Program-made: the position numbers and the translations under genes | The notes under the pieces: model-generated | Database searches by the model: none | The model's input: the letters and a program-made list of their open reading frames with translations, nothing else | Told to the model about the DNA's origin: nothing | Assembly: GCA_024103135.1 (NCBI GenBank) | Contig: JAGFIZ010000014.1 | Coordinates: 1 to 38,754, forward strand | Length of the DNA: 38,754 nucleotides | From: Bradyrhizobiaceae bacterium | GTDB lineage: Bacteria; Bacteroidota; Ignavibacteria; Kapaibacteriales; Kapaibacteriaceae | Direction: 5' to 3' | Shown here: one piece after another, positions 6,501 to 25,608 of the stretch | Numbering within the stretch: position 1 is the first letter of the stretch | Layout of the letters: the number at the start of each line of letters is the position of its first letter

Positions 6501-7036
6501 AGGCGCTGAAGCGCACTGCCGAGTGACTGTGGAAGCAAGCCGATCAACAGTGCAAGGAGTCCGATGGATGCCACTCCTCTAAGCAGTCCCATGCGGTACT
6601 TCTTCTTGTTGATGATTGCCGTAAAATCCTTGGGCGATGCTACAGTTTGTGCATCAAGTACTGCTGCAGATACAAGCTCCCGTGAGCCATGCTGGGTAGA
6701 TTCAAGCTGCAAGGAATTCGACAACGTATCACGAACATCAGGATACACCTCGCCTACGCGGAGTGCCAGCGTTTCGACTGAGTCGATGGAAGCCAGGCCG
6801 AGTAGTCGTAGAACGGGTTTGGAGAGGAAGACAACGGCGCAGGCAACCGTGCCGACGAGCCAAGCACCAGCGAGGACTGTCCTACCAACGACGGATCCGT
6901 GCAGGAGTGCTTCGAGGACGATCACTAGTAACAACGCAGCTGCTGACACAAAGCTCACGGTTCCCAAGCCCCCTACGAGAAACCAAAGCTGCTCCAGTTT
7001 ACCAGTGGAATGAAGTCGGTTGCGTATCGAACTCAT
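3557..7036 (-). CDS. DUF4175 family membrane protein with long Gln/Met-rich coiled coil
   Basis: The 1159-residue product has two transmembrane helices near the N-terminus (about 14-45 and 54-76), a third at about 150-169, then a beta-rich extracytoplasmic region (about 190-510), a Glu/Gln/Lys coiled coil (about 515-790) and a Gln/Met/Gly/Ser-rich low-complexity region (about 800-1040). The segment around 81-112, with VETLALRVGEVYPD, is typical of the DUF4175 family as I know it from Bacteroidota and Ignavibacteria. The molecular function of this family is unknown; it usually lies beside DUF4159 and MoxR/VWA-type genes, and a cell-envelope role is likely. Its ATG overlaps the stop of the DUF4159 gene by four bases (ATGA), so translation is coupled. 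The coiled coil and Met/Gln tract create several spurious frames on the opposite strand. Confidence 0.85.
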   Translation of the reverse strand: MSSIRNRLHSTGKLEQLWFLVGGLGTVSFVSAAALLLVIVLEALLHGSVVGRTVLAGAWLVGTVACAVVFLSKPVLRLLGLASIDSVETLALRVGEVYPDVRDTLSNSLQLESTQHGSRELVSAAVLDAQTVASPKDFTAIINKKKYRMGLLRGVASIGLLALLIGLLPQSLGSALQRLWNYDVSYMPPAPFRLAIRVMADTVMRGENGQVQISAIGTIPTGTQLFVRDVRSERFVPVAIEFDTSKTIVHEFQGMSSSVVLFAHAPWNESGVSTDTVGITVIDKPLIRSLTGRVVPPSYTGQAPTEISDQTADIATLRGSVASIRVIASKELHHARIIVESDADTGSVDTTVVPMTVSGTQATANFSVKQSGAYHIEIVDKDGQSNANPVKHKIIALTDAYPTISMVEPQKDVDIDASARLPLLVAVADDYGFSSLRLKYKLVKSRYAAADKDYREIRIPIQQGVTSTDVGYVWDLAKVDITPDDEYEFYVEVFDNDVVSGPKSARSSTYHVRMPSLAEVYAQADRTQESLTKELKEIAKETEQIRRESEELQKELQKQQSQGKTQSQWSERKKTEDLAKRQQQLEKRMEEAAAKLEQMTEKLEQHQAISPETLEKYKELQELMKKVKSPELERMQRQMQEAMKQVSPEELEKMMQNFKFDEEKFKQNIERTMNLLKRIQAEQKADELAKRAEELMQQQEDLRKQTENTNAQSKEAREQLAKQQQNLKDELNKLAQESKELQQQMKDLGATMPNDLMERALEELDAEQTAADMQQAEQQMSSADMQKAAEKQKSASANLQRFAQQMKQVKKQMNKNANREAMRQMQRGMNDMLDLSKQQEDLMKQMENASPGTQQFNRLAQKQQQVQEAMKNMANSMMQLSQKSMSVTPEMAQDMGDALQHMQNALSQMQDGQSRMSMQSQQGAMSSMNSAAKRMSDALSQMMQGDGSGQGGDGQNPGQGKGSGQSPFQRLQQLADQQQQINQQMGQMGQNPGGSGQGAGSNGSQPTQEQLAEYGRLAQQQGRALKALQELERETREAGGTRKPIGNLDQIASDMKEVMTDMQTGSITPETKLRQERILSRLLNASRSMNERDYEKTRESNSGVDVTRQSPAALLNRSQDPAAMRTLMDQLKRGYTKDYESLIRAYFEVLQRQRTGVNN

Positions 7037-7740
7037 TGTGTTAGCGCGTAGACGATGATATTGGTACCGATCTTCAATGCCGCTTCTCGCTTCTCTGGTG
7101 GATCATGATGTACGTCGGGATCTGCCCAACCATCACTAGGATTGGTTTCCACCGTATAGAACACACACAGTCGCTTTCCCGAGAAAAGTCCATACCCGCG
7201 TGGCGGCTTGTTGTCGTGCTCATGAATCTTTGGCAAACCGTTCGAGAAATCAAAGTGTGCATGGTATATGGGATGGTCAAATGGCAACTCAACGAGTTCC
7301 TGATCAGGATAGATCTTCTTGAGCTCCTTGCGAATGCTTTGATCCATTCCGTAATCATCGTCAATGTACAAGAATCCGCCGTTGTCCAAATACGCCCGAA
7401 GCCGCTTGGCCTCTGCATCGCTAAAGTTCACCGTACCATGACCAGTCATGAACACCAATGGATAGCGAAAAAGATTGTCGCTCTTTAACTCTACAAACTC
7501 GTATTCGGGAACGACGTCGATGTTGGTGTGTGCTCGTACATATTGGAGTAGGTTGACCTCGGCACTTGGGTCGTTATACCAGTCTCCCCCACCGCTGTAC
7601 TTAAGTCGTGCAAGCCGAACGCCCGAAGCCGTCGAACTGGCCGAGGTCGACGGGGCCGGACCAGGCAGACGGGTGCCTAGTTGCGCTGGAGCGTCTGCAA
7701 CCAGTACGACAAGTACGATGGCAGTTAGGAAAACTTGCAT
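7033..7740 (-). CDS. DUF4159 domain-containing secreted protein
   Basis: The 235-residue product opens with a signal peptide (hydrophobic residues about 3-19, cleavage plausible near Ala-Gln). The mature part matches the DUF4159 family: a GGGDWYND segment near the start, the FMTGHG motif, LRAYLDNGGFLYIDDD, and a conserved LPFDHPIY segment. The fold is thought to be related to class I glutamine amidotransferase/ThuA-like proteins, but a catalytic triad is not established for the family. It starts at ATG 7740, 16 bases inside the end of rsmG, and runs four bases into the DUF4175 gene, so the three are almost certainly co-transcribed. The pairing with DUF4175 is a recurrent arrangement and suggests a shared periplasmic or envelope task. 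The family call is firm; the function is unknown. Confidence 0.85.
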   Translation of the reverse strand: MQVFLTAIVLVVLVADAPAQLGTRLPGPAPSTSASSTASGVRLARLKYSGGGDWYNDPSAEVNLLQYVRAHTNIDVVPEYEFVELKSDNLFRYPLVFMTGHGTVNFSDAEAKRLRAYLDNGGFLYIDDDYGMDQSIRKELKKIYPDQELVELPFDHPIYHAHFDFSNGLPKIHEHDNKPPRGYGLFSGKRLCVFYTVETNPSDGWADPDVHHDPPEKREAALKIGTNIIVYALTQ

Positions 7741-9812: not shown

Positions 9813-11759
9813 ATGCGGTATCTCACATGTATGCTGTGCGTCTTTTCAATGGTGGCCGTTACGCGCGTCCGGTCACAGTCTTCTGAAGTTGCCTTGCATG
9901 GTGGCATTGCGTTGAATGCTCATGCTGCTTCCTTTACACAGCTTGGGAACTATGCCTCGTGCTGTCCGGAGTTTTCTGGTGGAAGTGGATTTGGATACTG
10001 GTTTGGAGCTGGGTATCGACTGTCAATCGCAAAACACTGGCTCATTGGTGCTTCCTTGATTTACAACTCGCAGCAAGGAACCATGGACTACAGCGAGCTC
10101 TCCGTTGTGGCCGATCTGCGCGATACTCCACGCGTACGCCAGGCGGAGTTTCTGCATGAGCTCACGAGTACGGTAACATCGCTAGGCATTGAACCGCACA
10201 TTACGTTCAGAGTAGGCAAACGACTCGACCTATCACTAGGTATGAGAATAGCCAGCGTGTTCACGCACCATTTCACACAACGTGAAACGTTGCAGAAACC
10301 AGAAGACTATGGCGAGTACTTAGGTGCAGGGCGAACATGGGTCAACCACGATGCAGACATCCCCGATGCGGCATCCATCTACCTGGGATTACTCAGTTCC
10401 ATTCGGTATGCTATCCCGCTCAACAACAGTAGTAGTTGGCTCATCCAACCGGAGCTTGCCTACATAGCCCCCTTCAGTCAGGTTACGACCTCGGCCTCAT
10501 GGTCAACGTCCGACCTTCGATTTGGTATCGGCATTGCCCATGTGTTCGGGACCGACACTGCCGTGGCAATCCCCGATACGATTTATGGTAAACCAAAGGA
10601 AACTCAGCCCCCTTCCCCACCACCATTACCAGATCCGCCGGTTGCGTCGATTCAAGTACGAATCCTAAACGATGACTCCAATGCAACCGTGGACTCCATC
10701 CTTGTCGAGGAGACAAAGTACGTTGACTATTTACCGGTACTTCCACACGTGTACTTTGATCTTGGTAGCTCAACAATCCCTCAGAGATTTAGAGTGGACA
10801 AGAACGATCTAACCGACAACACCAAGTACTCCGAATCCTCAAAGGCCATTCAGTCCGTACTCCTCACCGTTGCGAAACGACTGATGGACAATCCAAAAGC
10901 AAACATTACCCTTACTGGTTGTACGTCGGAGGCAGAGTCTTCATCAGATGCAAACCTTGCACGCAATCGTGCGTTGGCGGTACAAGCCATGCTCGTTGAA
11001 TTAGGCGTTGCAAAGGACCGAATCGACATTAAGGCGCGGAAGCTTCCGCTTGCAGCAACACGCGCATCGAAGTCTGCAGACCAGCAGCAGGCCGATGAGG
11101 AGAATCAACGTGTTGAGATTCTGTCCTCAGATCTGGATATTCTACAGCCAATGGTACTTAGTACGGTGGACACCACGATTACTCCCGATTCCATCGTCGT
11201 GCATGGTAGAGCTTCTGCCGATGGTGGCATCAAATATTCGGCTGCAATTCCATTCACTTCCGTAGAAGCACAGTCACACAGGTGGGAATACACTGTTGCA
11301 ATACCCTCTCCACGTCGCACGGACTCTGCCTTTATAGAAGTCACTGATTCCCTGGGACGCATCGCTCGTGCTTCGCAGACGATCCCTGTGTCGGTCATGA
11401 CCGTAGAACGCAAACTCACCGAACAGCGCGGCAATGCAGAAATTGAACGCTACAGCCTCATACTCTTTGATTTTGACAAGGCCGACATCACGCCAGCCCA
11501 CCAACACGTGTTAGCAAAGATTCTCAAGCGGATCAGGGAGGGGGCTTTGGTTCAAGTGTATGGGATGACAGACTCCATGGGGTCAGACGAATACAACATG
11601 GATCTGTCACGACGCCGTGCAATGGAAGTGGCACGAGCCCTTGGTTTGACTGAGGATCTGGTCTATGCCTTGGGTGCGAGGAACCCTCGGTTTAGTAATG
11701 ATACGCCAGAAGGTCGCGCATACAATCGCACCGTAATTATCGAGATCCACAAGAAATAG
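9813..11759 (+). CDS. Outer-membrane OmpA-family protein with two OmpA-like domains, copy 1
   Basis: From the ATG at 9813 the 648-residue product has a signal peptide (about 1-22, cleaved near Arg-Ser-Gln), an N-terminal beta-rich domain of about 300 residues that looks like an outer-membrane barrel, a Pro-rich linker (KPKETQPPSPPPLPDPP), a first OmpA-like domain (about 327-440) with the NITLTGCTSEAE segment, a spacer, and a second OmpA-like domain at the C-terminus (about 545-648) with LILFDFDKADITP and an SRRRAMEVARALG helix. OmpA-like domains normally bind peptidoglycan. The barrel-like region carries an adjacent cysteine pair in CCPEFSGG, which recurs in the second copy downstream. Another ATG at 9777 would add 12 residues. 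It is followed 84 bases later by the WD40/VWA surface protein. Architecture is clear; the exact role is unknown. Confidence 0.85.
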   Translation: MRYLTCMLCVFSMVAVTRVRSQSSEVALHGGIALNAHAASFTQLGNYASCCPEFSGGSGFGYWFGAGYRLSIAKHWLIGASLIYNSQQGTMDYSELSVVADLRDTPRVRQAEFLHELTSTVTSLGIEPHITFRVGKRLDLSLGMRIASVFTHHFTQRETLQKPEDYGEYLGAGRTWVNHDADIPDAASIYLGLLSSIRYAIPLNNSSSWLIQPELAYIAPFSQVTTSASWSTSDLRFGIGIAHVFGTDTAVAIPDTIYGKPKETQPPSPPPLPDPPVASIQVRILNDDSNATVDSILVEETKYVDYLPVLPHVYFDLGSSTIPQRFRVDKNDLTDNTKYSESSKAIQSVLLTVAKRLMDNPKANITLTGCTSEAESSSDANLARNRALAVQAMLVELGVAKDRIDIKARKLPLAATRASKSADQQQADEENQRVEILSSDLDILQPMVLSTVDTTITPDSIVVHGRASADGGIKYSAAIPFTSVEAQSHRWEYTVAIPSPRRTDSAFIEVTDSLGRIARASQTIPVSVMTVERKLTEQRGNAEIERYSLILFDFDKADITPAHQHVLAKILKRIREGALVQVYGMTDSMGSDEYNMDLSRRRAMEVARALGLTEDLVYALGARNPRFSNDTPEGRAYNRTVIIEIHKK

Positions 11760-11792
11760 CCCGCCGTATGTGGTTCAAGCGTGGGAGTTCTG

Positions 11793-11800
11793 TACTTTTG
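11793..11800 (+). promoter_or_regulatory. Possible Bacteroidota -7 element before the WD40/VWA gene
   Basis: The bases TACTTTTG match the Bacteroidota TAnnTTTG -7 consensus and lie 43 bases before the ATG at 11844, in the 84-base gap. No TTG stands at the usual distance upstream, so this is only half a promoter. Confidence 0.25.
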
Positions 11801-11843
11801 GGACTCTTACGACAATTGATCCCACCTATTCCAGGGGCACACA

Positions 11844-14800
11844 ATGCGGTGTTTTTCCTATGCCTTGGCATTATTTCTTGTATGTACGATCTCCACAGCA
11901 GCTCAGAACTACGTAGTTGTTGAGGCACTTACCAGTGGGTACCCCAGCGTTGTCCTCCGAGCGTATGGTTTTGATGAAAATGGGGCACCGCAGTCGGTAA
12001 GTGGTGCAACGCTCAAGGAAGATGGTGTAGATAGGCAGGCGAACGTGTTTGACGAGCCCAGCTCAGACGGTAAAATTCTGTCGTGCATGGTTCTTGTAAG
12101 CACGTCTGCAAACCTTTCCTCAGGTGGGAACCCGTCGAACCTCCTCCTTGCAAAGTCAGCCGCTACAGCTGCAGCATCGCCGCTTACATCGACATCCGAC
12201 GAGATCGGTCTCGGCATCTTTGATGCTCGAGCACGGATTCTTCATGGGTTAACCAATGATAAGCAGGGCTATGCTCAGGCAATTGCGGACATTGCCATTG
12301 GTAGCGGATGTAATCTCGACTCTGGTCTGCTTGCCAAACCCGAGGGTGCGCTAACACACTTGCGTAATGCTCGATACAACCGCATGTTATTGCTCATTGT
12401 GGATGGTGCACCATCGTTTGCTCAACTCAAGGCCGCACAAACCGCTATTAGCTTTCACATACCAGTGTACATCATTGGTATTAGGACGACGTTGTCGGCC
12501 GAGTTGAAGCAGCTATCCGACACCACCGGTGGTGCTTATGCAGAAGGCGTTTCAACTGATGCAGATGCTGCCACCTACGCACGCGCCTTCGTTTCTCATG
12601 CCAAGCAACTTCCAGCAACACGGTTAAGCTATACGTCAGCTGCACAATGTAGTCCGATGCACACCGTAGAGGTCACGTCGGCATCGATCGTCCGTCAGTT
12701 CACCTATCAATTGCCATCGATCCTGCTTCCCTACCTGGAGTGGGATGTCACCGGTGTCGACTTTGGTACTGCCTCAGCAGCCAGCGAACGAACTGTCCAG
12801 CTTACAGCTAGAAACAAGGCCATCACCATTACCTCGTTGTCGAGTGACGACCCGTCATTCACGATCGTAACTGGTATTACTCCTGGTACGGTTCTTCAGC
12901 AGAATGCCAGCATTCCTGTGACCGTGAGGTATCAAGGTGGAGCTCAAGGGGCGTTCGGAACACTTACGCTAGTGGCCGATGGGTCGTGTGCAACTCCAGA
13001 ACTGCCAATGCGCGCCGGTGGGTATACGAGTGGCAAGACACTAAAGGTTGTCTCACCCAATGGAGGCGAATCCTACCTTGCTGGACGTGCCACTGCCATA
13101 CGATGGACAAACGTCCTACCCGAAGACGTTGTTCGTATTGAGTATAGCAGCAATGACGGAACATCATGGATGCCCTTAACGGAGACTGCAACCGGCTTGT
13201 CCTATACATGGGTGCCAGGTCCTGAGCTGACGACCAGTGGAAGAATTCGAATCCAGCGAACGGCTATACCTGCGGAAGCAATCGTAACACTGTCAGGTCA
13301 TCGCGATCCAGTGTACGGTGCTGCATTTTCTTATGACGGACAGTACGTCATCACAGGAGGGCATGACGGAACCGTCCGCCTGTGGAATTCTGCAACTGGC
13401 ACACAGGTCCAGGAGTTAGGCAACCATGGCAGCCAATTCGCTTGGGCCGTAGCTGCCCACCCATCAGAATTGATTGGTGCAAGTGGTGGACATGATGGAA
13501 CCGTTAAAGTGTATGACCTGGTTACGGGTGAGCGACTAGCGGTGATCTATGCTCCGTCGAGAGTCTGGTCTGTTGCCTTCTCACCCGACGGGAATAACGT
13601 CGTCATTGGTACGGAGCAGTCAATTCTCATTGTCAATTGGCGGACCAGTGAAGTGGTCAATTCAATTGTTGTGGCTGGCGGGCCCGTCTATGAAGTCCGC
13701 TATAGCTCGGATGGCACAATGCTCTTGAGTGCAGAAGCCGACAGAGCATCACTTCGAAGTACTACGACCTACGATGTTCTTCAAACGTTGGCAACAGGTA
13801 CTGGCATCGTATTCGCAGCAGATATCTCGCCCGACAACAAAACCATTGCAACCGGTGGTTCAGATTTTATCCTCCGTACATGGGATGTTCAGAACGGCAA
13901 TCTGATTGGTAGCACTCCATCATACAATGCCAGCATTCAGAGTCTGGACTTCTCAGCCAGTGGATCAACAATTGTCGCTGGCAGCAGTGATGGTGCCGCT
14001 AAAGTATTTCGAACAGCGACACTGGAATTGGCAAACTCCTTTGCAAGCTCCAGTTCAATCATTTACTGTGTGCAGTACGACAACCAAGGTAACCGAATTG
14101 TCACTGCTGGCACAGATGCTAAAGCCCGCGTTTGGAATCTCCAGGGAGCCACGCTCTCAGAGGACGTAAGCGATGCAACGTTCACCATTCGTGGCGGTAA
14201 GATTGAGCAGACTTCCATTGACCATGGCGACATCTATGTTGGTGATGCTGACGAACGAGTGAGCCAGGTGCTCAAGAACACCGGCTCCGATACCTTGGTA
14301 GTCAATGGTTGGAGACTCGTCAGCGGTGATCTTGCGGAAGTTGATGTTCCAACCGTATCAAAAGCAACACTCCTGGCACCAAATGAGTCCCTCTCGCTCC
14401 GAACCATCTGTCAGCCAGCTTCCACGGGGGACGTATCAGCGACCCTGCTCATTAGTGCAGGTGGTGGCAATGTTTCGACAACGATTCGTGGCAAGGGAGT
14501 CCAGCAGCAGTTAGTCACACCAGACGTGGTGAACTTTGGTCGGCATATCGCAGGTCAGAGCGTTATCGACACTACCATTCTCCTTCAAGCTAGAGTTGGC
14601 AGCACACCCGTGACCGTAACTAGGACGGTACTCATGGGCGTGCAGCAAGGGGCATTTGAAATCGTAGAAGGTGGTGGCACATTCTCGATTGGATCCGGAC
14701 AGACTCATAAACTCTCATTGCGCTACTCCCCTGCATCGTTTGGTCGATTTGCAGCATGGATTGAGTTTACACTTGAAGATGGTTCAGTCCGCACAATGTG

Positions 14801-16160
14801 TCTCTACGGCGAAGGTACTGGCGACGCTCGCTTCCGCTCATCTGCCTCCACGTTGCTCTTTACCACTGATCAGTGTTCGTCGGCATCCGTCAGTGAGAGC
14901 GTGTCCGTAAGCAATGCCGGCAACACACCACTTATCATCTACAATGCAGAGATAACAGGAACGCATGCCAATGAGTTTACGCTTGTAGCGCCTGACACGT
15001 TCCCGGTACAAATAGCTCCAAACGACACGGTTAAGTTCCAGGTAAGTTTCGATCCGCAGAGCGTAGGTGTCAAGGATGCTGCGCTACAGATTGCATCGAG
15101 TGCCGTTGATGCTATAAACGGCATTTCTGTTATTGCCATCGTTGCAAGAAAGGACAGTGTTGGATTTGAGCTTTCTCGCACCAAGGTAGATTTTGACGGA
15201 GTGAATGAAGGCGAGAAGGCCATTCAGCGTATTACGATATTCAACACCGGTAGTACAACGCTGCGCTGGCCAGTTGTGGGGACGCTTGTTGGTTCGTTTA
15301 GAATCAGTGCTCCCGAGCCCCCTGTCACCCCTCCAGGTGGAGCTAGCGAAGTCACCATCGAGTTTCTCGGTGGAAGCGTAAACCAAAGTTATACGGGTAG
15401 TTACAACTATGTAGACACGGTATGTAATCGCTCGCGTCTACTTGAGCTTAGTGCAACGGTAAAAAGCTACATCGGCTGTACTGTAGCAATCGATACCGTT
15501 GGGACGACAATCGGATCAACAGTGTCGGTTCCAATACGCATACGTAACAAGGTGAATTTTGATAGAACATCAATCACCGAGATTCATGCTCGCATTCGCG
15601 TGAATGGTTCGATACTTAAACCTGTTGGCATCCAAAGCACACAACTCGGCAATGGCGACCGCGTGTTCGAAGTCGCAATTCCTATACCACAGAGTGGTGA
15701 CCTGGCATCCAACCTTACCTTCAACACTATGTGGGGTAACGACACGGCGGGATTCATTCGACTGGACAGTGTTTGGTCGGCCGACACCGTACTCATTCGA
15801 ACCGTACATGGACAAGTACAGCTAACCGATCTCTGTAGAGAAGGTGGCCCTCGGCTCTTACTACGCGAGCGTGATCGTAATGGTGGGTTACCGGCACATG
15901 CACCAGCACAGGTGCGGGTGGTTCCAGCTCCGGTGTCGAGCGTTGCTACCATTGACCTACGCATCGTCGAGGATGGACCAACACGCGTCGACCTTGTTGA
16001 TGCATCAGGAAAGGTCGTTCAAACCCTTGTTGACAGAGAACTCACGATTGGCAACTACCTCTTGCCACTGGAAGTAGATTCATTAGAGAATGGTATGTAC
16101 ACGTTACAGCTTGTGACCAGAACTCAACGCATGTCTAACCGATTCACAGTAGTAAAATGA
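11844..16160 (+). CDS. Giant secreted VWA / seven-blade WD40 / ASH-repeat surface protein with T9SS-like sorting tail
   Basis: The 1438-residue product has a signal peptide (1-20), a VWA-like domain (about 25-285), an ASH-type beta-sandwich (about 290-395), a KNH-like domain starting at about 401 with VVSPNGGESYLAG, exactly seven WD40-type repeats (about 482-770) that could close one beta-propeller, about four further ASH/choice-of-anchor D domains (starting near 786, 890, 997 and 1106), a further beta-domain, and a C-terminal tail (about 1360-1438) with VDLVDASGKVV and LENGMYTLQL, the pattern of T9SS type A sorting domains. The VWA metal site is degenerate: Ser86-Thr-Ser-Ala-Asn90 stands where Asp-x-Ser-x-Ser is expected. 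It lies between two paralogous OmpA-like genes and overlaps the second by four bases (ATGA), suggesting a surface complex. No enzyme domain is visible. Confidence 0.85.
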   Translation: MRCFSYALALFLVCTISTAAQNYVVVEALTSGYPSVVLRAYGFDENGAPQSVSGATLKEDGVDRQANVFDEPSSDGKILSCMVLVSTSANLSSGGNPSNLLLAKSAATAAASPLTSTSDEIGLGIFDARARILHGLTNDKQGYAQAIADIAIGSGCNLDSGLLAKPEGALTHLRNARYNRMLLLIVDGAPSFAQLKAAQTAISFHIPVYIIGIRTTLSAELKQLSDTTGGAYAEGVSTDADAATYARAFVSHAKQLPATRLSYTSAAQCSPMHTVEVTSASIVRQFTYQLPSILLPYLEWDVTGVDFGTASAASERTVQLTARNKAITITSLSSDDPSFTIVTGITPGTVLQQNASIPVTVRYQGGAQGAFGTLTLVADGSCATPELPMRAGGYTSGKTLKVVSPNGGESYLAGRATAIRWTNVLPEDVVRIEYSSNDGTSWMPLTETATGLSYTWVPGPELTTSGRIRIQRTAIPAEAIVTLSGHRDPVYGAAFSYDGQYVITGGHDGTVRLWNSATGTQVQELGNHGSQFAWAVAAHPSELIGASGGHDGTVKVYDLVTGERLAVIYAPSRVWSVAFSPDGNNVVIGTEQSILIVNWRTSEVVNSIVVAGGPVYEVRYSSDGTMLLSAEADRASLRSTTTYDVLQTLATGTGIVFAADISPDNKTIATGGSDFILRTWDVQNGNLIGSTPSYNASIQSLDFSASGSTIVAGSSDGAAKVFRTATLELANSFASSSSIIYCVQYDNQGNRIVTAGTDAKARVWNLQGATLSEDVSDATFTIRGGKIEQTSIDHGDIYVGDADERVSQVLKNTGSDTLVVNGWRLVSGDLAEVDVPTVSKATLLAPNESLSLRTICQPASTGDVSATLLISAGGGNVSTTIRGKGVQQQLVTPDVVNFGRHIAGQSVIDTTILLQARVGSTPVTVTRTVLMGVQQGAFEIVEGGGTFSIGSGQTHKLSLRYSPASFGRFAAWIEFTLEDGSVRTMCLYGEGTGDARFRSSASTLLFTTDQCSSASVSESVSVSNAGNTPLIIYNAEITGTHANEFTLVAPDTFPVQIAPNDTVKFQVSFDPQSVGVKDAALQIASSAVDAINGISVIAIVARKDSVGFELSRTKVDFDGVNEGEKAIQRITIFNTGSTTLRWPVVGTLVGSFRISAPEPPVTPPGGASEVTIEFLGGSVNQSYTGSYNYVDTVCNRSRLLELSATVKSYIGCTVAIDTVGTTIGSTVSVPIRIRNKVNFDRTSITEIHARIRVNGSILKPVGIQSTQLGNGDRVFEVAIPIPQSGDLASNLTFNTMWGNDTAGFIRLDSVWSADTVLIRTVHGQVQLTDLCREGGPRLLLRERDRNGGLPAHAPAQVRVVPAPVSSVATIDLRIVEDGPTRVDLVDASGKVVQTLVDRELTIGNYLLPLEVDSLENGMYTLQLVTRTQRMSNRFTVVK

Positions 16161-18175
16161 GCACCTGCAAACTTGCAATCGTATTGATCCTTGCCAGTGT
16201 CGTAGGCGCTGTTGCACAACCATCATCATCCACCAAACTTTGGAAACAGCATCCGCGGCTTGCCTTGTTTGGTGATGCCGACGTCGCACTTTCGACGGCA
16301 CAATTTGGCGGGTTACCTACTGTGCCGAGCTGTTGCCCGGAATACACTGGCGCAACCGATATCGGTTTCGTTGCAGGCCTGGCCTACATTTCACCTCTCG
16401 ACGACCTGATGTCAGTCCACATCCGCATGCACTATAGCACGTATGGTTCGCCACTGACGTCGACGCAAACGTTGCCTATTGACCCGATTGACAATGGCCC
16501 ATCTACGGCAACCATTGAGCACTCTCTTACAGGTACGTTCCAACAGATCAGCGTCGAACCCTTGTTTGGCTATGAAATCGCCAATGGTCTTAACGCTCTT
16601 GGTGGTTTAACACTGGGCGCAGCATTCTCCGCTACCTATGATCAGAAGGAGACGCTGATGGATCCGCCTGACGCCACGTTCCAAAACAGGTCACGAGTAA
16701 GGAATGCCCTCTCTGGTGACATTCAGAATGCCAACGTCTTCCAAGCAGGGATTACGGTGGGTCTTAGCTACGACCTTCCTCTCACAAGCGATGGCTCAGT
16801 ACTGATTAGCCCAGAGGTATTGTTCACGTATTCGTTGCTACCCCACACATCGGACGTTTCGTGGAACACACACCACCTTCGTGCTGGATTGGCCGTGGGC
16901 TTCGTACCAGTACCGGAAACAGACTCGCTGACGGACGTAGAGCTCTACGAATTCACAAAGGGTATCAAGGCACCAACGACTGTTGCACCAGGCATTCCCT
17001 TTGTAGCAAGGATCTCTCACAGTGGCATAACCGAGACTGGTAGCAATGCAGATGGCTCGAGTATTCGCATTGAGGAATTCACATCGAATAGAATACGTCC
17101 ACTCCTTCCATACGTCTTCTTCACGCCTGGCTCGTCCGACCTCCAGAGCAAGTATCGTAGACTAACAGCAGAGCAGGTCGAGAGCTTCTCGATGAAGAAC
17201 TTCTACAACCTTGATGCAATTGTCACCTACCATCATTTGCTCAATATCGTGGGTAAGCGCCTGCAGGAGAATCCATCAGCAACCATTACGCTTACCGGTT
17301 GCGCAGACCCAGCAGAAGCCACACAGACAACTGCCAGCGCTCGTGCCAATGTCGTACGGGATTATCTGGTGGACACGTGGAATATCGAGCCGAGTCGCAT
17401 TACCGTGAATTCTCAAGGTTTGCCCGAGCGTGCATCCCGATCGAATGAAGCCGATGGTGTAGCAGAAAATGCACGCGTAGAAATCAATGCATCCACACCA
17501 GAAATCCTTGCACCGGTTGAAAGTACCGATACCATGCTCGTAACCACACCTAGCGGCATTCGCTTTGCACCGAGCATTGATCCTCGCGTACATATCGCTG
17601 GCTATACGCTCTTCATTGCACAGAATGGAACACTGCTGAAAACTATTGACGGCCCCGATCCATTGCCCAGTGCCTTGGATTGGCGCGTTAGCGAAAGTGC
17701 TCCATGGATCAGCAAGGATCAGAAAGAAATCAGCTACTTGATTGCCGTACGGGATAGTTCGGGAGCAGTTATTCCATCGGCTACCCACACCATCCCTATT
17801 GAACGTGTTGGTAGTACCGGTGAAAACAAGACAGGCAAGTCCAAGACACGCCTTGACCGATACTCGCTGATCCTCTTCGGATTCGACCAAGATGCACTCA
17901 GTGCTGAACATCAAGGTCAGATCGCAATGTTCAAGCAACGAATTCAACCATCAAGCACGGTGAAGGTTGTCGGCTATACCGATAGGACTGGTGACGCTTC
18001 CTACAATCAGTCACTTAGCGAACGACGTGCCCGCACCGTCGCAGCAGCCCTTGGTGTTCCTGAAAGCTCGGCCATGGGACGTGGAGAGGTCTTGCCTTTG
18101 TACGACAATTCGACTCCTGAAGGACGATTCTATTCTCGCACGGTAGAGGTACTGGTAGAAACACCACAACCATAA
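16157..18175 (+). CDS. Outer-membrane OmpA-family protein with two OmpA-like domains, copy 2
   Basis: The 672-residue product is a paralogue of the OmpA-like protein upstream of the WD40 gene. It has a signal peptide (1-20, ending Ala-Val-Ala-Gln), a barrel-like N-terminal domain of about 270 residues with the same cysteine pair (SCCPEYTG), a first OmpA-like domain (about 318-450) containing ATITLTGCADPAEA, a beta-rich spacer, and a second OmpA-like domain (about 565-672) with LILFGFDQDALS and SERRARTVAAALG. It lacks the Pro-rich linker of copy 1. The ATG overlaps the stop of the WD40 gene (ATGA), and its own stop overlaps the following GT4 start by one base (TAATG), so the three are translationally coupled. 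Peptidoglycan anchoring of an outer-membrane complex is the likely role, inferred from the OmpA fold. Confidence 0.87.
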   Translation: MSTCKLAIVLILASVVGAVAQPSSSTKLWKQHPRLALFGDADVALSTAQFGGLPTVPSCCPEYTGATDIGFVAGLAYISPLDDLMSVHIRMHYSTYGSPLTSTQTLPIDPIDNGPSTATIEHSLTGTFQQISVEPLFGYEIANGLNALGGLTLGAAFSATYDQKETLMDPPDATFQNRSRVRNALSGDIQNANVFQAGITVGLSYDLPLTSDGSVLISPEVLFTYSLLPHTSDVSWNTHHLRAGLAVGFVPVPETDSLTDVELYEFTKGIKAPTTVAPGIPFVARISHSGITETGSNADGSSIRIEEFTSNRIRPLLPYVFFTPGSSDLQSKYRRLTAEQVESFSMKNFYNLDAIVTYHHLLNIVGKRLQENPSATITLTGCADPAEATQTTASARANVVRDYLVDTWNIEPSRITVNSQGLPERASRSNEADGVAENARVEINASTPEILAPVESTDTMLVTTPSGIRFAPSIDPRVHIAGYTLFIAQNGTLLKTIDGPDPLPSALDWRVSESAPWISKDQKEISYLIAVRDSSGAVIPSATHTIPIERVGSTGENKTGKSKTRLDRYSLILFGFDQDALSAEHQGQIAMFKQRIQPSSTVKVVGYTDRTGDASYNQSLSERRARTVAAALGVPESSAMGRGEVLPLYDNSTPEGRFYSRTVEVLVETPQP

Positions 18176-19290
18176 TGCGCATCCTTGTTGTAAACTGGCA
18201 AGACCGACTACATCCACAGTCAGGTGGTGCCGAAGTTCACTTACACGAGATCTTTGGAAGAATTGCAGGAATGGGTCACCACGTGACCCTTCTTTGTTGT
18301 AGGTGGAAGGGGGCTCAGGCACGCGAGGAGTTGGACGGAATCCACGTCCAACGAATTGGTGTGCGTTCGACGTTTAACTACATGGTACCGTTGTGGTGGC
18401 TTGCCGTTGGCCAGCGTATGGACTTCGACATCGTTGTCGACGACATTAACAAGCTCCCCTTTCTCACACCGCTGTACGTTCGTAAACCGATCCTGGCCTT
18501 GGTTCACCACTTTTTTGGTGACAGTATCTATGCCGAGGTCAATCATTTGGCGGGAATGTATGTGTCCGCCTTCGAACGCAGCATCCCATTGGTATACGCG
18601 AAGACCATACTCTGTGCAGTTAGTGAAAGTACAAAGCAGGAGTGTCTGTCAAAGGGCTTCGCCAGCTCGCAGGTGCGGGTGATCTACAATGGAATCGACC
18701 AGAGTCTCTTCCCAATGGCGGTGACGGAGAAGAATGCAGCTCCGACAATCGTCTACTTTGGTAGGCTTAAGCGATATAAAAGTGTCGACCACATCATCCG
18801 TGCTCTTGCCATTGTACGCCAGCATATCCCGGATGCACAGTTGGAGGTTTTGGGTACTGGGGACGAGTTGATGCAGCTACAGGAGCTTGCCGTTAAGCTC
18901 AACGTTCACAACCACGTACATTTCCGTGGCTTTGTAAGCAACGACATGAAGGCCGCCTACCTGTCCAAAGCCCACTTGGCCGTCAATCCATCGGTAAAGG
19001 AGGGCTGGGGCATCACCAACCTAGAGGCCAATGCCTGCGGAACACCGGTAATCAGTGCCGACGTGCCTGGCTTGAGAGATTCTGTCAAGGATGGTCAGTC
19101 AGGTCTGCTCTACCCCTACGGTAACATTGAACGGTTGGCTGAGTTGATCGTACGCCTCCTGTCGGACAGCACCGAGCGGGAGCAGTTAAGCAACGGAGCT
19201 GTTGATTGGGCAGCTAAGTTTACATGGGACTGTAGCGCAGAGCAAATGCTGGCGTTATGTGAGGAGGTTTGTCAAACACCAACTTCATAG
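18175..19290 (+). CDS. Family 4 (GT-B) glycosyltransferase
   Basis: The 371-residue product has the two-domain GT-B layout. The N-terminal domain starts MRILVVNWQDRLHPQSGGAE, a glycine-rich acceptor-side loop common in GT4 enzymes. The C-terminal nucleotide-sugar domain starts near TIVYFGRLKRYKSVDHIIRA and holds the donor-binding EGWGITNLEANACGTPV segment with the E-x7-E motif. It transfers a sugar from a nucleotide donor, probably at the cytoplasmic face of the inner membrane. Its start overlaps the stop of OmpA copy 2 by one base, which ties it to the surface-protein cassette. T9SS cargo in other Bacteroidota is attached to or decorated with sugars, so glycan synthesis for the neighbouring proteins is plausible but unproven. 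Donor and acceptor are unknown. Confidence 0.9.
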   Translation: MRILVVNWQDRLHPQSGGAEVHLHEIFGRIAGMGHHVTLLCCRWKGAQAREELDGIHVQRIGVRSTFNYMVPLWWLAVGQRMDFDIVVDDINKLPFLTPLYVRKPILALVHHFFGDSIYAEVNHLAGMYVSAFERSIPLVYAKTILCAVSESTKQECLSKGFASSQVRVIYNGIDQSLFPMAVTEKNAAPTIVYFGRLKRYKSVDHIIRALAIVRQHIPDAQLEVLGTGDELMQLQELAVKLNVHNHVHFRGFVSNDMKAAYLSKAHLAVNPSVKEGWGITNLEANACGTPVISADVPGLRDSVKDGQSGLLYPYGNIERLAELIVRLLSDSTEREQLSNGAVDWAAKFTWDCSAEQMLALCEEVCQTPTS

Positions 19291-19300
19291 GAATGGAGTT

Positions 19301-21316
19301 ATGAAGTCAGTTGTACTCTGCATTGCCATCGTGATTATGGTTTGCGGCTTGTCTGCACAGACTCTGCGAACATCACTAGGACAAGACTTCTGGATTGCCT
19401 TCCCACCAACGGAGCATGGGAATACTGCTTCTGCAACAGTGTTCATTTCTGCCGATGCAACAACCAACGCTGTCGTTGCATCAAGAGACCGTAGCGGAAG
19501 ACCACACTCTGACGTAATCACCATTCCCGCAGGAAGTGTACGTGCGGTAGACTTTGACATTCTTGATTACGAGCTCCGTGCTTACGCATTCGCAGGCAGT
19601 TTAAATGGCGATTGCGAACAGGTTATGCCACAGCACGTTCATATCACGACAGATGCCGATGTTGCAGTATATGCAGTTGTTCGAGATGACAGGACCTCTG
19701 ATGCATGGCTGGTACTGCCGACGCAATCGCTTGGCACGGAGTATCGCGTCATGTCGTACCCCTCCGAGTATGCGAATCAATTATTTCAGTTAAAGAAGTA
19801 TCCGAGTCAGTTTGTCGTTGTCGCAACGGAAGACAACACAGAAATCGAGATAGACCTCAACACCAACAGCTCAAGAGTAGCAGCTGGCAAGCATCGCTCG
19901 GTGGTTATGAACCAAGGCGATAGTTACCTGCTTCAAGCAGACGTAAGCTCAAGCAAGCCAAATGACGATCTAACAGGGACTCGAATAAGAGCAACAAAGC
20001 CGATTGTTGTGCTTGGTGGACATTACAGAGCACAAGTGCCCGTGTTAGGTGATATGGCATCCCGGGACATGTTGGTAGAACAGATGCAAAGCGTTGATGT
20101 ATGGGGCAAATACTACGTTGTTCCGCCCTTGAAGCCACCCACGAAATCCAAGCAGTCTGATCCAAACGACGTTGTGATGGTGCGCGTTTTGACTTGTCTC
20201 GATAGCACGACCATTACCGTGGAAGGCATCGCCACATCGACCATACCACGCGCTGGCGGCATCTGGGACCTACCTCTTGGCAAGGGACGAGTGATTCATG
20301 CAACACAACCCATTATGGTTGCAATACTCGATCGCACTGCCAACAGGAATACGATGAATGTCAATTACAGCGGAGATCCATCATTGATCATCGTTCCGCC
20401 TGTTGAGCAATACCTCGCTAGCTACCGAACCGTCAATATTGAACCAATTGTCGCTGGTCGTCCATTATATGACCAACATCAGATTACAGTTTTCGCACCA
20501 CTCAGCAACACCAGAATTCGAGTTGATGGAGCAGCTGTTCCAGCACTTACTCGCATTGGAACGAGTGACTTTGGTTACGCTCATTTGGACGTAAGCTCGG
20601 GAACACACCGGAGTGCATCTGCGATTAACCCGTCGACAGGAAGCAGCGAGGGGTTTGGCATCCTCATTTATGGTTACGGTCCAGCTGAATCATACGGATA
20701 TACTGGCGGCATGGCCTTTGAGAAGCTATATCAACCAACTGTGTGGTTAAGAGCGTTGGATACAAGTGGCGCTGCGGGTGACAAGACATCACTCGTTGTG
20801 GTCGTGGACTCCATCTCGCAACGAGAATCACTAAAGCTATTGGATGTCCATGAACTCACATCGTCCATATCATACAACTCCACGATCTGGGTGCCAGCAC
20901 CAGAAATCGTTTCAAGTTGGTCTCGACAAGATGCCGAACATGCACTGCTCAATTTTACGTACCAATTCGACAGCTTGAGTGCTGGAGACACTGTTGCCGT
21001 TCTCCCTGGTCGCATGGTTCTTGGCTCCACAACAAAGGATTCTCTCTTCCTTGGTACAGTTCGATGGCTCAACAGCGTAGGCAATCCGATGTCGGTTGCC
21101 TACCGCATAAAGGGCGCAGAACTTACACTCACGGATGTTTGCGACAAGAATGGACTCCGACTATTCGACCCGCTCAGCACAACAGGTACGGCACCGACAG
21201 TTCGTTACTACGATTTGATGGGACGCGAAATCAGGGAGAGACCAACTGGTCCTTGTTTAGAAGTTCAGTCTGATACTCGCGGAATACGGTCGGCGCGTTT
21301 GCTGCTCAAAGAGTAG
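19301..21316 (+). CDS. Secreted IgGFc-binding-like protein
   Basis: From the ATG at 19301 the 671-residue product has a signal peptide (about 1-20, ending Leu-Ser-Ala-Gln), followed by GQDFWIAFPPTEHGN, a signature seen at the start of secreted IgGFc-binding-domain proteins of Bacteroidota. The middle (about 60-430) fits the IgGFc-binding N-terminal domain: repeated beta-strands with VVATEDNTEIEI and IVVLGGHYR-type segments. The C-terminus contains LTLTDVCDKNGLRLF and then VRYYDLMGREI, resembling a short T9SS-type sorting tail. An AGGA at 19289-19292 lies eight bases before the ATG and supports this start; the frame extends upstream into the GT4 gene. The domain name comes from a mucin-associated animal protein and does not imply antibody binding here; adhesion or a surface-coat role is the likely meaning. 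The gene overlaps ccmF tail to tail by 11 bases. Confidence 0.8.
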   Translation: MKSVVLCIAIVIMVCGLSAQTLRTSLGQDFWIAFPPTEHGNTASATVFISADATTNAVVASRDRSGRPHSDVITIPAGSVRAVDFDILDYELRAYAFAGSLNGDCEQVMPQHVHITTDADVAVYAVVRDDRTSDAWLVLPTQSLGTEYRVMSYPSEYANQLFQLKKYPSQFVVVATEDNTEIEIDLNTNSSRVAAGKHRSVVMNQGDSYLLQADVSSSKPNDDLTGTRIRATKPIVVLGGHYRAQVPVLGDMASRDMLVEQMQSVDVWGKYYVVPPLKPPTKSKQSDPNDVVMVRVLTCLDSTTITVEGIATSTIPRAGGIWDLPLGKGRVIHATQPIMVAILDRTANRNTMNVNYSGDPSLIIVPPVEQYLASYRTVNIEPIVAGRPLYDQHQITVFAPLSNTRIRVDGAAVPALTRIGTSDFGYAHLDVSSGTHRSASAINPSTGSSEGFGILIYGYGPAESYGYTGGMAFEKLYQPTVWLRALDTSGAAGDKTSLVVVVDSISQRESLKLLDVHELTSSISYNSTIWVPAPEIVSSWSRQDAEHALLNFTYQFDSLSAGDTVAVLPGRMVLGSTTKDSLFLGTVRWLNSVGNPMSVAYRIKGAELTLTDVCDKNGLRLFDPLSTTGTAPTVRYYDLMGREIRERPTGPCLEVQSDTRGIRSARLLLKE

Positions 21317-23708
21317 ACGTACCTTGTTCTATCGGCGCTTGTGTTGCTGGTTCCACCGAGGAAGCACTGCTTAGATCTTCCTTGCGAGGTTGCGCGCTTG
21401 CAGCGGCAAGTCTTGCATAACGTCCAATGCTAAAGGCAAACCCCAGAACCATGGTCAACACCCCAGCCCATACAAGAGAGATCCATGGCTTTTCCGAGAA
21501 GTCCACAACGAAAACCTCACGTGGCACTTGCAGCGGCTTTGTCATATCTCTAAATCCGAATTCAGCACTACTTCTGTTCGGATCCTCATTGTTCCGGATA
21601 ACCTTGGTTAGACCGATGCCATAGGTGGTGCCAGGAATTGAAGTCCACTCTGGTTCAAACGTAGGTCCGTTCTCTCCCTGACCAATTGCCGTTCTCACCT
21701 TCAGTGTGTTAGTTGAATCGGATCCTGAACCGCCCCTGTCAATCAACAACATGGCTGCCATGCGCATGCGACCATCTTCGGTCTGCTGTTCCTCCATAGG
21801 CATGGTGAAACGATCCAGAGTAATCTTGATGGACGAGTCGAGTGGCATGCGGACTGAAGCCCCCTTCATCACCGTCTTTGATTTAAAGAGGTCCTCCTCG
21901 CTAGTTGCCTTCGGCGTAAGATAAAGGTCGTTGTGTATTCCCCATCGAATGCCTGGCTCCAGGAATGCGCTTTGGCGCTGATTGTAATCGCTCCAGTACA
22001 GTGTGGCTGACAGACGTACGGCATCGGATGGGTCTTGGTCTGCCTTACGCACATCAACATGGTAGCGGTACTTCTCTCTGTCCTTCCATTGCTTCTCGAT
22101 TTGCTCCCGACCTTCATACGTGAGCACGTACTCCCCCACGGCTGTCGGCACGCCTTTGACGAGCACTGCATGATGGATGACGCTAAACTGTGAGCTGGTG
22201 ATCACACCAAATACCAAGAGTGCTATGCCGGTGTGGGAGATGTATGCCCCCGCATGGGTTGGTGAACGACGGATAACGGGCCATGCCATCTGAGCATTGA
22301 CTACGAGTGCAAACCAACCACCAAAGGTTAGAGCAATCATACCGAGGTTGGTGATTCCAAGGGCAATTGCAGGGAGCGTAAGGACAGCAGAAATACCTGC
22401 GGCGATTATTGTTCGCTTTTTAAATGTCCGAAGCGTTGTTCCTCGCCACTGTACAAGCAACGATATGCCGTTCACAAGGAGAACCAAGGGAACTAGAATG
22501 CTGTGAATCTGATTGTAGAAACCCGTAGTCACGGCGACCTTTGGCTGCCCGATGATTTCCATGATCACAGGCCACGACGTGCCAACCGTAACAAATACTG
22601 CACTGGCCATGACCAAGGCCGAGCCAATGCTGAGCATGAACTCTCTGGTCGTTGGTGCGAAGTCATCCTTGGCTTTGTCAATGTCCTTTGCACGCATTAC
22701 CAAGAGTGTTACGCCAATGCCAGAGAAAACAATCATGAAGCCAAGCAAGATCCAGAATGCGAAAGCACCTGGGTCCACAAAGGAATGCACGCTCGTGTCC
22801 CCCAGCACCCCACTACGCGTAAGAAACGTCGAATACAGAACGAAGACAAACGCTGCAATGGCAAGAGCAACGGTGGTTTTGACTAGCCCACGCGTACGCT
22901 TTTGTACAAGCATCGTGTGAACCAAGGCCACGCTAACGAGCCAGGGAATCAGACTACTATTCTCCACTGGATCCCACGCCCAGAAGCCACCCCAACCAAG
23001 CGTCTCGTATGCCCAGAAACCACCGAGCATGATTCCAAACCCAAGGATTGCCGTTGCAAACAACGTCCATGGCAACGCAATCACTATCCACCGATGATAT
23101 TCTTTCTTGATCAACCCAGCGACGGCAAAGACAAAGCTCACCGTCATCGATGCAAACCCGGCAAAGAGTATTGGAGGATGAATCGTAATCCATGTATTAT
23201 GGAGCAGCGGGTTCATACCCTTACCATTTGCTGGGAGGTCCGCTGCAGTCAGTCCGTTCTTGGCAAAGGACTCCCAATACAAGGCGAAGGGATTCTTGGC
23301 AACCAGCAGCAGAGTAAGAAAGCACAGGATGCCACCGAATAAGGTCATCGCTGTTGGCTCATAGCCAAACCGACGAGCGTGAGGGAGTGCAAAGACGGCA
23401 ATGATCGAAACAAACATTGCCCATAGTAAGAAGCTCCCCTCCTGTCCCGAATAGAAGCTGGCAATCAGCAGGTGTAACGGCATCTCGCGCGAACTCTGGT
23501 TCCACACATATGTGTATTGGAACTGGTGCTGCACAATGTTGATGATGAGCATTGATGCACAGGCAATCAAGCCGAACATCAGCATCGTAAGTAGCGTCCG
23601 ACCAAGTTTTATGAAATGCGCACCATTCGCTCTGTGAGCAAGGGCGTAGCTAACGGTTGTTCCAACTGCAAGACCAAGCAGCAGGTGAACGATAAGTTGC
23701 TCTATCAA
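21306..23708 (-). CDS. ccmF: Cytochrome c haem lyase subunit CcmF
   Basis: CcmF ligates haem, delivered by holo-CcmE, to apocytochrome c on the outer face of the inner membrane. The 800-residue protein has many transmembrane helices and the haem-handling tryptophan-rich motif WGGFWAWDPVENSSLIPWL at about 239-257, followed by conserved histidines. It is longer than the usual roughly 650 residues; the extra length is a soluble region between about 500 and 740, before the final transmembrane helix, and a charged C-terminal tail. The best start is TTG at 23708, which overlaps the stop of the second CcmE-like gene by four bases (TTGA); no ATG lies near the family start. It is the last gene of the ccmC-ccmD-ccmE-ccmE2-ccmF run. 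No ccmG or ccmH follows in the window. Confidence 0.92.
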   Translation of the reverse strand: MIEQLIVHLLLGLAVGTTVSYALAHRANGAHFIKLGRTLLTMLMFGLIACASMLIINIVQHQFQYTYVWNQSSREMPLHLLIASFYSGQEGSFLLWAMFVSIIAVFALPHARRFGYEPTAMTLFGGILCFLTLLLVAKNPFALYWESFAKNGLTAADLPANGKGMNPLLHNTWITIHPPILFAGFASMTVSFVFAVAGLIKKEYHRWIVIALPWTLFATAILGFGIMLGGFWAYETLGWGGFWAWDPVENSSLIPWLVSVALVHTMLVQKRTRGLVKTTVALAIAAFVFVLYSTFLTRSGVLGDTSVHSFVDPGAFAFWILLGFMIVFSGIGVTLLVMRAKDIDKAKDDFAPTTREFMLSIGSALVMASAVFVTVGTSWPVIMEIIGQPKVAVTTGFYNQIHSILVPLVLLVNGISLLVQWRGTTLRTFKKRTIIAAGISAVLTLPAIALGITNLGMIALTFGGWFALVVNAQMAWPVIRRSPTHAGAYISHTGIALLVFGVITSSQFSVIHHAVLVKGVPTAVGEYVLTYEGREQIEKQWKDREKYRYHVDVRKADQDPSDAVRLSATLYWSDYNQRQSAFLEPGIRWGIHNDLYLTPKATSEEDLFKSKTVMKGASVRMPLDSSIKITLDRFTMPMEEQQTEDGRMRMAAMLLIDRGGSGSDSTNTLKVRTAIGQGENGPTFEPEWTSIPGTTYGIGLTKVIRNNEDPNRSSAEFGFRDMTKPLQVPREVFVVDFSEKPWISLVWAGVLTMVLGFAFSIGRYARLAAASAQPRKEDLSSASSVEPATQAPIEQGTSTL

Positions 23709-24055
23709 TTCGAGTATACCTGTGTTGCATGAAAATATGGAGGGGTGGTACCGTGAACGTGACCGACGAAGTCCACTGAACTCCCTTCGGTGAAGGGTTT
23801 GTCAGGGGGCTTACCAGTGTATTCAACACTAAACTGAACACCATACCTATCCTCACACAGCCATCGATCGGCTTCTTGCCGAAGGATGGTGCTGGTAATA
23901 ATCATTTTGGGGGCCTGCTCCTCACTGCTGGCATGCTCCGAACGCTTGATTGCTTGTTCAAAGGTGACCGATTCTAGTGAGCCATACTGCGAGGCCACAT
24001 AGAATGCCAGAGGAACCATGACAATCGTTGCAACGATGATGATCCGCTTAAGCAC
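23705..24055 (-). CDS. Second CcmE-like OB-fold protein lacking the haem-binding tail
   Basis: Using a GTG at 24055, which overlaps the ccmE stop by eight bases, the product is 116 residues: a single N-terminal membrane anchor (about 3-21) and a beta-rich domain ending FVGHVHGTTPPYFHATQVYSN-like. That last stretch corresponds to the final strands of the CcmE OB fold, where CcmE proteins read GxxxGxFxAxxVL just before the haem-binding motif, but here the chain stops and no HxxxY or CxxxY follows. An in-frame ATG at 24121 exists but would put 22 extra residues over the end of ccmE and spoil the short N-terminus. Position between ccmE and ccmF suggests a haem-relay accessory or a non-catalytic partner of CcmE. 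The family link is by pattern only. Confidence 0.7.
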   Translation of the reverse strand: MLKRIIIVATIVMVPLAFYVASQYGSLESVTFEQAIKRSEHASSEEQAPKMIITSTILRQEADRWLCEDRYGVQFSVEYTGKPPDKPFTEGSSVDFVGHVHGTTPPYFHATQVYSN

Positions 24056-24425
24056 CTTGAGGCGTGCCTTCGTATTTGGATGGACATTTTGTAAGAACGT
24101 TCTGTGCCTTGAGGACACCATTCTCTACACGCCCCTTAACGACCAGACTTACAGCGATCTCGAAATTGTTTGGCTTTGACCCAGCCAGCTCTACTGGGAT
24201 ACTCTTCCCGTTCTGGTCCTTCAACGTGAACCGGAAGATGTCCTGGTTCTGGTCATACGAACTACCATCATCCTTCACCCACGTACCAACGATCTGTACG
24301 GTACTGCCGAGCTTCTCTGCCTTGTCGACGTTGGTATACTCGATGGCGCTGTTGTCAAGAGCATACCATCCGATGAGGACAAGGGCGACAACAACAATGC
24401 CGCCGATCACATAGCGCTTGTTCAT
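24048..24425 (-). CDS. ccmE: Cytochrome c maturation haem chaperone CcmE, Cys-x3-Tyr variant
   Basis: CcmE binds haem covalently outside the inner membrane and passes it to CcmF. The 125-residue product has one N-terminal membrane anchor (about 5-23), the OB-fold beta-domain, and the family segment VVKGRVENGVLKAQNVLTK. In most CcmE proteins a histidine in HxxxY carries the haem; here the motif is Cys114-Pro-Ser-Lys-Tyr118. CxxxY forms of CcmE are known from archaea and some Desulfovibrio-type bacteria. Its ATG overlaps the stop of ccmD (ATGA). The following CcmE-like gene starts inside its last codons. Identity is strong from fold pattern and operon; the haem linkage is inferred. Confidence 0.9.
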   Translation of the reverse strand: MNKRYVIGGIVVVALVLIGWYALDNSAIEYTNVDKAEKLGSTVQIVGTWVKDDGSSYDQNQDIFRFTLKDQNGKSIPVELAGSKPNNFEIAVSLVVKGRVENGVLKAQNVLTKCPSKYEGTPQGA

Positions 24426-24550
24426 TTTCGCTGTTCAAGATTTTTCACACGTGCATCCAGGCGCCAGAGATAACCGGCAATACCTACCCAGATCACTAAA
24501 ACCGTGGCTAAAACCACGTATGGGGCGTTATGACTTAGGAATTCCATCAT
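24422..24550 (-). CDS. ccmD: CcmD-like small membrane protein
   Basis: The 42-residue product starts MMEFLSHNAPYVVLATVLVI: one transmembrane helix followed by a short basic tail (RLDARVKNLEQRK), the size and topology of CcmD, which helps release holo-CcmE from the CcmC complex. The ATG at 24550 overlaps the ccmC stop (ATGA) and its own stop overlaps the ccmE start (ATGA). A longer in-frame start at 24658 would lie within ccmC and is not credible. Sequence similarity is low, as usual in this family, so the call rests on topology and position. Confidence 0.8.
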   Translation of the reverse strand: MMEFLSHNAPYVVLATVLVIWVGIAGYLWRLDARVKNLEQRK

Positions 24551-25569: not shown

Positions 25570-25573
25570 GATG

Positions 25574-25581: not shown

Positions 25582-25608
25582 GGGTGAAGTCAGTAAACCG
25601 TTGGGTGA

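Follow-up and report, generated by a model that had tools for sequence, protein, structure and literature searches.

A Kapaibacteriaceae gene cassette that may pair secreted T9SS cargos with dedicated OmpA-type outer-membrane anchors

How might a large secreted protein be held at the cell surface when its gene stands between those of two outer-membrane barrels with peptidoglycan-binding domains? The question is raised by a 38,754-nucleotide stretch of DNA, hereafter the window, which is one whole contig (JAGFIZ010000014.1) of a 2.71-Mb genome assembly (GCA_024103135.1) placed in the Kapaibacteriaceae, within the Kapaibacteria, a little-studied group of uncultured bacteria. Five consecutive genes on its plus strand encode two OmpA-type proteins (OmpA1 and OmpA2), a 1438-residue protein called VWD here, a GT4 glycosyltransferase and an IgGFc_binding-domain protein. 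The best explanation, given a probability of roughly 0.58, is that this cassette encodes cargos of the type IX secretion system (T9SS) together with dedicated outer-membrane anchors; it is one instance of a large two-part family and thus more than a five-gene set. Its features are as follows:

9813..11759, plus strand: OmpA1, with a signal peptide, an eight-stranded OmpA-like barrel (deduced from its alignment with the OmpA2 model), two OmpA-like domains and an invariant pair of adjacent cysteines (CC) in the first loop
11844..16160, plus strand: VWD, 1438 amino acids, with a VWA domain (degenerate metal site), an ASH domain, an Ig-like domain, a seven-blade WD40 propeller, three to four ASH domains, a cohesin-like region, a C-x2-GG-x-RL motif and a T9SS type A-like tail
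15834..15857, plus strand: codons of the pre-tail cysteine motif CREGGPRL (VWD Cys1331, invariant in 18/18)
15924..16148, plus strand: T9SS type A-like sorting tail of VWD (TIGR04183, 23.6 bits)
16157..18175, plus strand: OmpA2, with a barrel (residues 34-249), a degenerate OmpA domain (319-445), an Ig-like domain (454-551) and an intact OmpA domain (563-671; D609/N617/R624)
16331..16336, plus strand: codons of the invariant CC (OmpA2 Cys59-Cys60) in barrel loop 1, predicted to be extracellular
18175..19290, plus strand: GT4 glycosyltransferase without a signal peptide, a cistron conserved in the family only
about 19301..21316, plus strand: IgGFc_binding-domain secreted protein with a single invariant cysteine in TDVCDKNGLRLF, followed by a short tail resembling a shortened T9SS tail (no TIGR04183 match)

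The open reading frames, junctions and domains had been described in a sequence-only reading of the window, and they are confirmed by reading-frame calls and by Pfam and NCBIfam profile matches, which serve as the domain calls for the cassette proteins. VWD and OmpA2 are joined by an ATGA overlap and OmpA2 and GT4 by a TAATG overlap; OmpA1 and OmpA2 have two OmpA matches each (83.5 and 74.4 bits; PF00691 cut-off 27.2 bits), and further matches were obtained for WD40, HYDIN/ASH and GT4 (137.8 bits). The IgGFc-binding-like protein said to follow GT4 matches PF17517 at 185.1 bits (gathering score 25.6 bits), which does not imply binding of IgG.

Single-protein AlphaFold2 models were obtained for OmpA2 and for VWD residues 1-1104. 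That of OmpA2 (mean predicted local distance difference test, pLDDT, 87) has an eight-stranded transmembrane barrel at residues 34-249 followed by the degenerate OmpA, Ig-like and intact OmpA domains; the barrel matches Escherichia coli OmpA (1bxw and 9fzd among the structure matches), and the C-terminal domains match OprF/OmpA. The three peptidoglycan-binding residues, taken from PorE (PMC7192894), correspond to D609/N617/R624, a triad that is invariant in the second OmpA domain of all 31 aligned OmpA1 and OmpA2 proteins of the family and absent from the first, which retains neither the D nor the N. PF00691 is matched in both OmpA1 and OmpA2, so that the C-terminal domain expected of the OmpA family, triad included, is present alongside the modelled barrel. 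The two adjacent cysteines (OmpA2 residues 59-60) are likewise invariant in 31/31 and lie in the model between barrel strands 1 and 2. As the OmpA domains bind peptidoglycan in the periplasm, the two ends of the barrel have to point there too, and loop 1 of the model is accordingly predicted to be extracellular. OmpA1 and OmpA2 split long ago into two paralogous lines: in the tree, every OmpA2 of the family falls in one supported group apart from OmpA1; one OmpA1 (L042:2841-4901) is extremely divergent, with an end branch of 3.1, and still keeps the loop CC. In a phylum-wide sample of 148 genomes, the full-length build of a barrel plus two OmpA domains is encoded by 12/12 genomes of the order and by one genome elsewhere in the class; in four others the match is confined to the C-terminal part. 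Plasmid records gave generic C-terminal OmpA matches only, none reaching 80% coverage.

The modelled part of VWD (mean pLDDT 89) comprises a VWA domain, an ASH domain, an Ig-like domain, a seven-blade propeller and three ASH domains. The claim of a complete propeller is borne out by this confident model, in which the strands of residues 490-765 form seven three-strand units and a closing strand, and it matches structures of seven-blade propellers as well as of ciliary proteins with many ASH-like domains. The VWA domain was rightly called degenerate: its fold is present, and its metal-site motif reads VSTSA in the window and DxSxS in most relatives. Homologues in genomes of the same family share 35-49% identity over the full length and occupy the same genomic place throughout, so the occurrence of VWD is not due to chance. 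Of the proposed T9SS-like tail, conservation is firm (18/18 aligned family members) but the score in the window is borderline, hmmscan giving 20.6 bits and the genome search 23.6 bits for the type A profile TIGR04183 (cut-off 23 bits); with a signal peptide seen by inspection, VWD thus qualifies narrowly as a T9SS type A cargo. It is among about 81 proteins of the window genome with tails over the cut-off, and SprA is present in 22/22 genomes searched (844 bits in the window genome). For the IgGFc-like protein, neither an NCBIfam type A sorting domain nor a clade-specific tail model gave a match, and its short YD-GR tail can be recognised only by inspection.

Conservation of the gene order in relatives, which the sequence-only reading had left to be checked, was examined at 17 fetched loci from several genera of the same family, read only as far as the contigs reach. 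The order OmpA1-VWD-OmpA2 is retained wherever a contig covers it; GT4 follows OmpA2 in 15/15 loci that reach that far (one by tblastn only), and the IgGFc-like gene comes next in 13/15, being absent from L032 and L042. In most family genomes the VWD and OmpA2 genes share one to four bases.

Beyond the family, 60 loci encoding a barrel plus two OmpA domains were picked across the order by OmpA score alone, disregarding neighbours. At 37 of them the immediate same-strand neighbour ends in a T9SS tail, often with an ATGA overlap, while only 5-9 would be expected at assumed neighbour rates of 8-15%; the chance of such a count is about 1e-25 at the 8% rate and about 2e-16 at 15%, both figures being too small owing to relatedness. 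At least seven families of the order show the arrangement of a double-OmpA barrel beside a T9SS cargo. Outside the cassette, VWD-like genes of families f1, f2, f3, f7, f8, f9 and f10 either stand next to a double-OmpA gene, which may lie upstream or downstream of them, or are fused to it; in the order beyond the window family, their neighbour is often a single double-OmpA gene, on one side or the other. In the window genome itself, double-OmpA genes also stand beside ASH or WD40 proteins on contigs C116, C125 and C119.

The only true one-chain versions of the cassette parts are fusions in f7, single chains of 1508-1618 residues (L106:3619-8211, L113:4851-9707, L114:3776-8404, L126:2415-7172, L128:12573-17099 and L130:4924-9714) that unite VWA-ASH-WD40-ASH with both OmpA domains, lack the barrel and the T9SS tail, and retain the DxSxS metal motif in their VWA domains. 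They support a functional link between the VWD part and the OmpA domains; that barrel and tail were lost together is what would be expected of a barrel needed only for bridging to an outside cargo.

A second line of evidence is given by cysteines. VWD has one invariant cysteine just before its tail, Cys1331, in the motif C-x2-GG-x-RL (18/18 aligned proteins), and the IgGFc-like protein has a cysteine in the equivalent motif in 14/14, the sole conserved cysteine of that protein; the cassette thus comprises two cysteine-pair barrels and two cysteine-motif cargos. Among 84 adjacent barrel-cargo pairs, two-cysteine loops are matched to a cysteine cargo in 77/79, the exceptions (L176 and L187) having as cargos downstream neighbours that are perhaps not true partners, and cysteine-free loops are matched to cysteine-free cargos in 4/4. 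The one single-cysteine loop among the 84 goes with a cysteine cargo, as do two more found later (L055, L269 and L286 in all). L269 and L286 had seemed exceptions to the CC rule and retain one cysteine at the position; in L185, another seeming exception, the CC is masked by a long N-terminal extension. One cysteine-free cargo retains the motif as LNYAGGGVRLL, the cysteine alone being lost, and intact pairs (L179, L180 and L183) occur too in the three f7 genomes that have cysteine-free ones. The strict motif is found in 57/84 paired cargos against 0/50 unpaired T9SS-tail proteins of the window genome, which served as the contrast set. Two side observations concern the same loop. At L117:1796-13501, two neighbouring double-OmpA/cargo modules have lost all loop and cargo cysteines, one cargo keeping GGGVRLL, and in the double-OmpA genes of L202, L204, L195 and L048 the loop reads CPSC instead of CC, a spacing as in thiol-exchange proteins.

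Taken together, a mechanism can be sketched. VWD, and probably the IgGFc-like protein too, would reach the periplasm via Sec and cross the outer membrane via the SprA translocon by means of the C-terminal tail; the exported VWD would then dock on the extracellular loops of the two OmpA proteins, whose periplasmic OmpA domains would grip peptidoglycan and so link the large WD40/ASH/VWA scaffold across the membrane to the cell wall. This docking might even be covalent, through a disulfide between the loop 1 cysteine pair and the single pre-tail cysteine of the cargo. The pairing of anchor and cargo is judged reasonably likely, and the disulfide between loop 1 and the cargo cysteine is offered tentatively. 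In SprF and PorG, twin cysteines constitute a strained donor disulfide that is attacked by a single cysteine of GldK (PMC12635249); by analogy, a twin-cysteine barrel with a single-cysteine partner could be this SprF/PorG-GldK logic moved to the outer face. The widest form of the proposal, that the Kapaibacteria have a large clade-specific carrier-cargo set in which peptidoglycan-anchored OmpA-type barrels covalently capture T9SS cargos on the surface, the C-x2-GG-x-RL cysteine exchanging with a strained loop 1 CC, is doubtful. The sequences and single-protein models show the gene order, the order-wide pairing, the domains and folds, the peptidoglycan-binding triad, the T9SS and the cysteine pattern; surface location, complex and disulfide are what we infer here. 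An outer-membrane-anchored surface complex, as first proposed, is plausible in view of the conserved order, the overlapping cistrons and the theme recurring across families.

Several observations weigh against this explanation. Genes that flank the cassette to left and right, among them endonuclease III and a CcmF-like gene, are equally conserved in order, so synteny within the family is weak evidence of joint function and is rejected as proof. The tail score of the window VWD lies near the cut-off, and the tail of the IgGFc-like protein is unrecognised by the profile. Many VWD-like proteins and many CC barrels of the order stand without a partner next to them. The counts are not independent, since the pairs share ancestry, and a single family supplies all the cysteine-free pairs, which fall into one cluster at 40% identity. 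A bare cysteine occurs near the same position in 27/50 unpaired T9SS-tail proteins of the window genome; being so common, it was discarded as a specific mark, and only the fuller C-x2-GG-x-RL motif counts as such. Finally, the f7 fusions lack the barrel, so a VWA-WD40-ASH plus OmpA protein apparently can work in the periplasm.

These points feed four alternatives. The one that survives best bears on the disulfide step only and is compatible with anchored cargos: the cysteines may serve otherwise, as an intramolecular disulfide or a structural cysteine in the last cohesin-like strand, plus a CC bridge internal to the loop. It is a serious contender, somewhat short of even odds, and draws on the frequency of similar cysteines in unpaired proteins; it sits less well with a cysteine that is the sole conserved one in the IgGFc-like protein, with the many VWD-like proteins that have no other cysteine in their last 300 residues, with its absence where the partner loop is cysteine-free, and with the single-cysteine loops that are still paired with cysteine cargos.

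The main rival to the anchor-cargo explanation as a whole is a periplasmic scaffold, in which VWD stays inside as a PorE-like propeller held to peptidoglycan by the OmpA proteins and braces the envelope or the T9SS. The f7 chains, fused without barrel or tail, speak for it, and PorE is known to unite propeller and OmpA in the periplasm (PMC9143113). It is nonetheless unlikely, since unfused VWDs have a T9SS tail family-wide and in nearly all intact copies of the order while fused ones have none, the unfused OmpA proteins retain their barrel, and the genome has separate PorE-like genes.

Quite unlikely is a conserved neighbourhood without a complex, in which general synteny would keep a stable operon for surface proteins together while its products, structural OmpA and unrelated surface proteins, act independently; the shared order of the flanking genes and the lack of the IgGFc gene in two genomes agree with it, but the pairing recurs at unrelated loci of several other families, in varied orders, as fusions and with matched cysteines. 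That the barrel is an export carrier, which in the manner of PorV or SprF takes over the cargo from SprA and later lets it go, is improbable, for although in Flavobacterium johnsoniae the carrier SprF also anchors its neighbour SprB on the surface (PMC9143113, PMC12635249) and the partner genes here are translationally coupled, PorV/PorP-like proteins are described as 14-stranded FadL-family barrels, whereas an eight-stranded OmpA-type barrel with a peptidoglycan domain seems better suited to holding.

Two further proposals of the sequence-only reading fell away. The cassette had been likened to PorE with its parts split over neighbouring genes, and this "split PorE" is rejected: PorE has no barrel, the propeller protein of the cassette bears a secretion tail, and the window genome encodes several separate PorE-like propeller-OmpA proteins, because of which the cassette is not a PorE replacement. 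Against the PorE profile NF052230 (cut-off 600 bits, reached in no genome searched, the PorE-like genes of the window genome included), OmpA1 and OmpA2 score 40.9 and 24.3 bits through the OmpA domain only, and VWD has no match. On contig C116 (L052:5085-6915), WD40 and OmpA reading frames overlap in different frames, like a PorE-type protein split into two genes or by a frameshift. A relation to PorP or to type B cargos was similarly rejected for want of matches, neither the PorP/SprF nor the type B cargo family being among the Pfam and NCBIfam matches of OmpA1, OmpA2 and VWD, and the modelled barrel having eight strands. The other proposal, GT4 as a dedicated glycosylation enzyme, was set aside as unsupported, as GT4 has no export signal and is conserved beside such pairs in the window family only; it may supply a surface glycan, and nothing links it to the cassette proteins.

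Outside the cassette, the minus strand at 21306-26396 of the window reads like a cytochrome c maturation cluster (CcmF-like, WAWDPVEN motif), which adjoins the cassette across the family, and neighbouring minus-strand genes at 3557-7740 carry DUF4175 and DUF4159.

The view that this combination is undescribed has held, literature searches for it having returned nothing. Surface retention of T9SS proteins is understood for few cases only, namely linkage to A-LPS (anionic lipopolysaccharide) and docking to PorP/SprF; the cassette provides a testable third case from a lineage without cultured members, in which the residues concerned can be named for either partner, and covalent capture by a barrel, if true, would be a further anchoring mode. 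It ties in with the recent finding of twin cysteines that serve as donor disulfides in T9SS-associated barrels, and it offers a sequence rule for matching otherwise uncharacterised surface proteins to their anchors in genomes.

Among known systems, SprF-SprB is similar in that barrel and T9SS cargo genes are neighbours, the cargo is anchored by the barrel (in the cassette, presumably) and the barrel protein has conserved twin cysteines (PMC9143113, PMC12635249). SprF, however, is a FadL-type barrel for a type B cargo with periplasmic-tail cysteines that bind GldK, whereas the cassette has an OmpA-type barrel, a type A-like cargo tail and cysteines in a predicted extracellular loop. PorG is also an outer-membrane protein, whose cysteine pair forms a disulfide to a T9SS component (PMC12635249), but the pair lies in its periplasmic tail and the partner is GldK/PorK. 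The slim porins OmpA/OprF share the eight-stranded barrel and the C-terminal peptidoglycan-binding domain with its D/N/R triad; unlike them, the cassette proteins have two OmpA domains, the first without the triad, an Ig-like domain in between, the loop 1 CC and an attached cargo gene. The PorE-PorP-PG1035 system of Porphyromonas gingivalis has the same elements of an outside cargo, a membrane barrel, a propeller and a peptidoglycan-binding OmpA domain (PMC9143113), whereas the cassette, with no PorP or PorE family match over the cut-off, unites barrel and peptidoglycan binding in one protein and gives the propeller to the exported cargo. The cassette is therefore akin to SprF-SprB and PorP-PG1035 in its manner of working and a member of neither.

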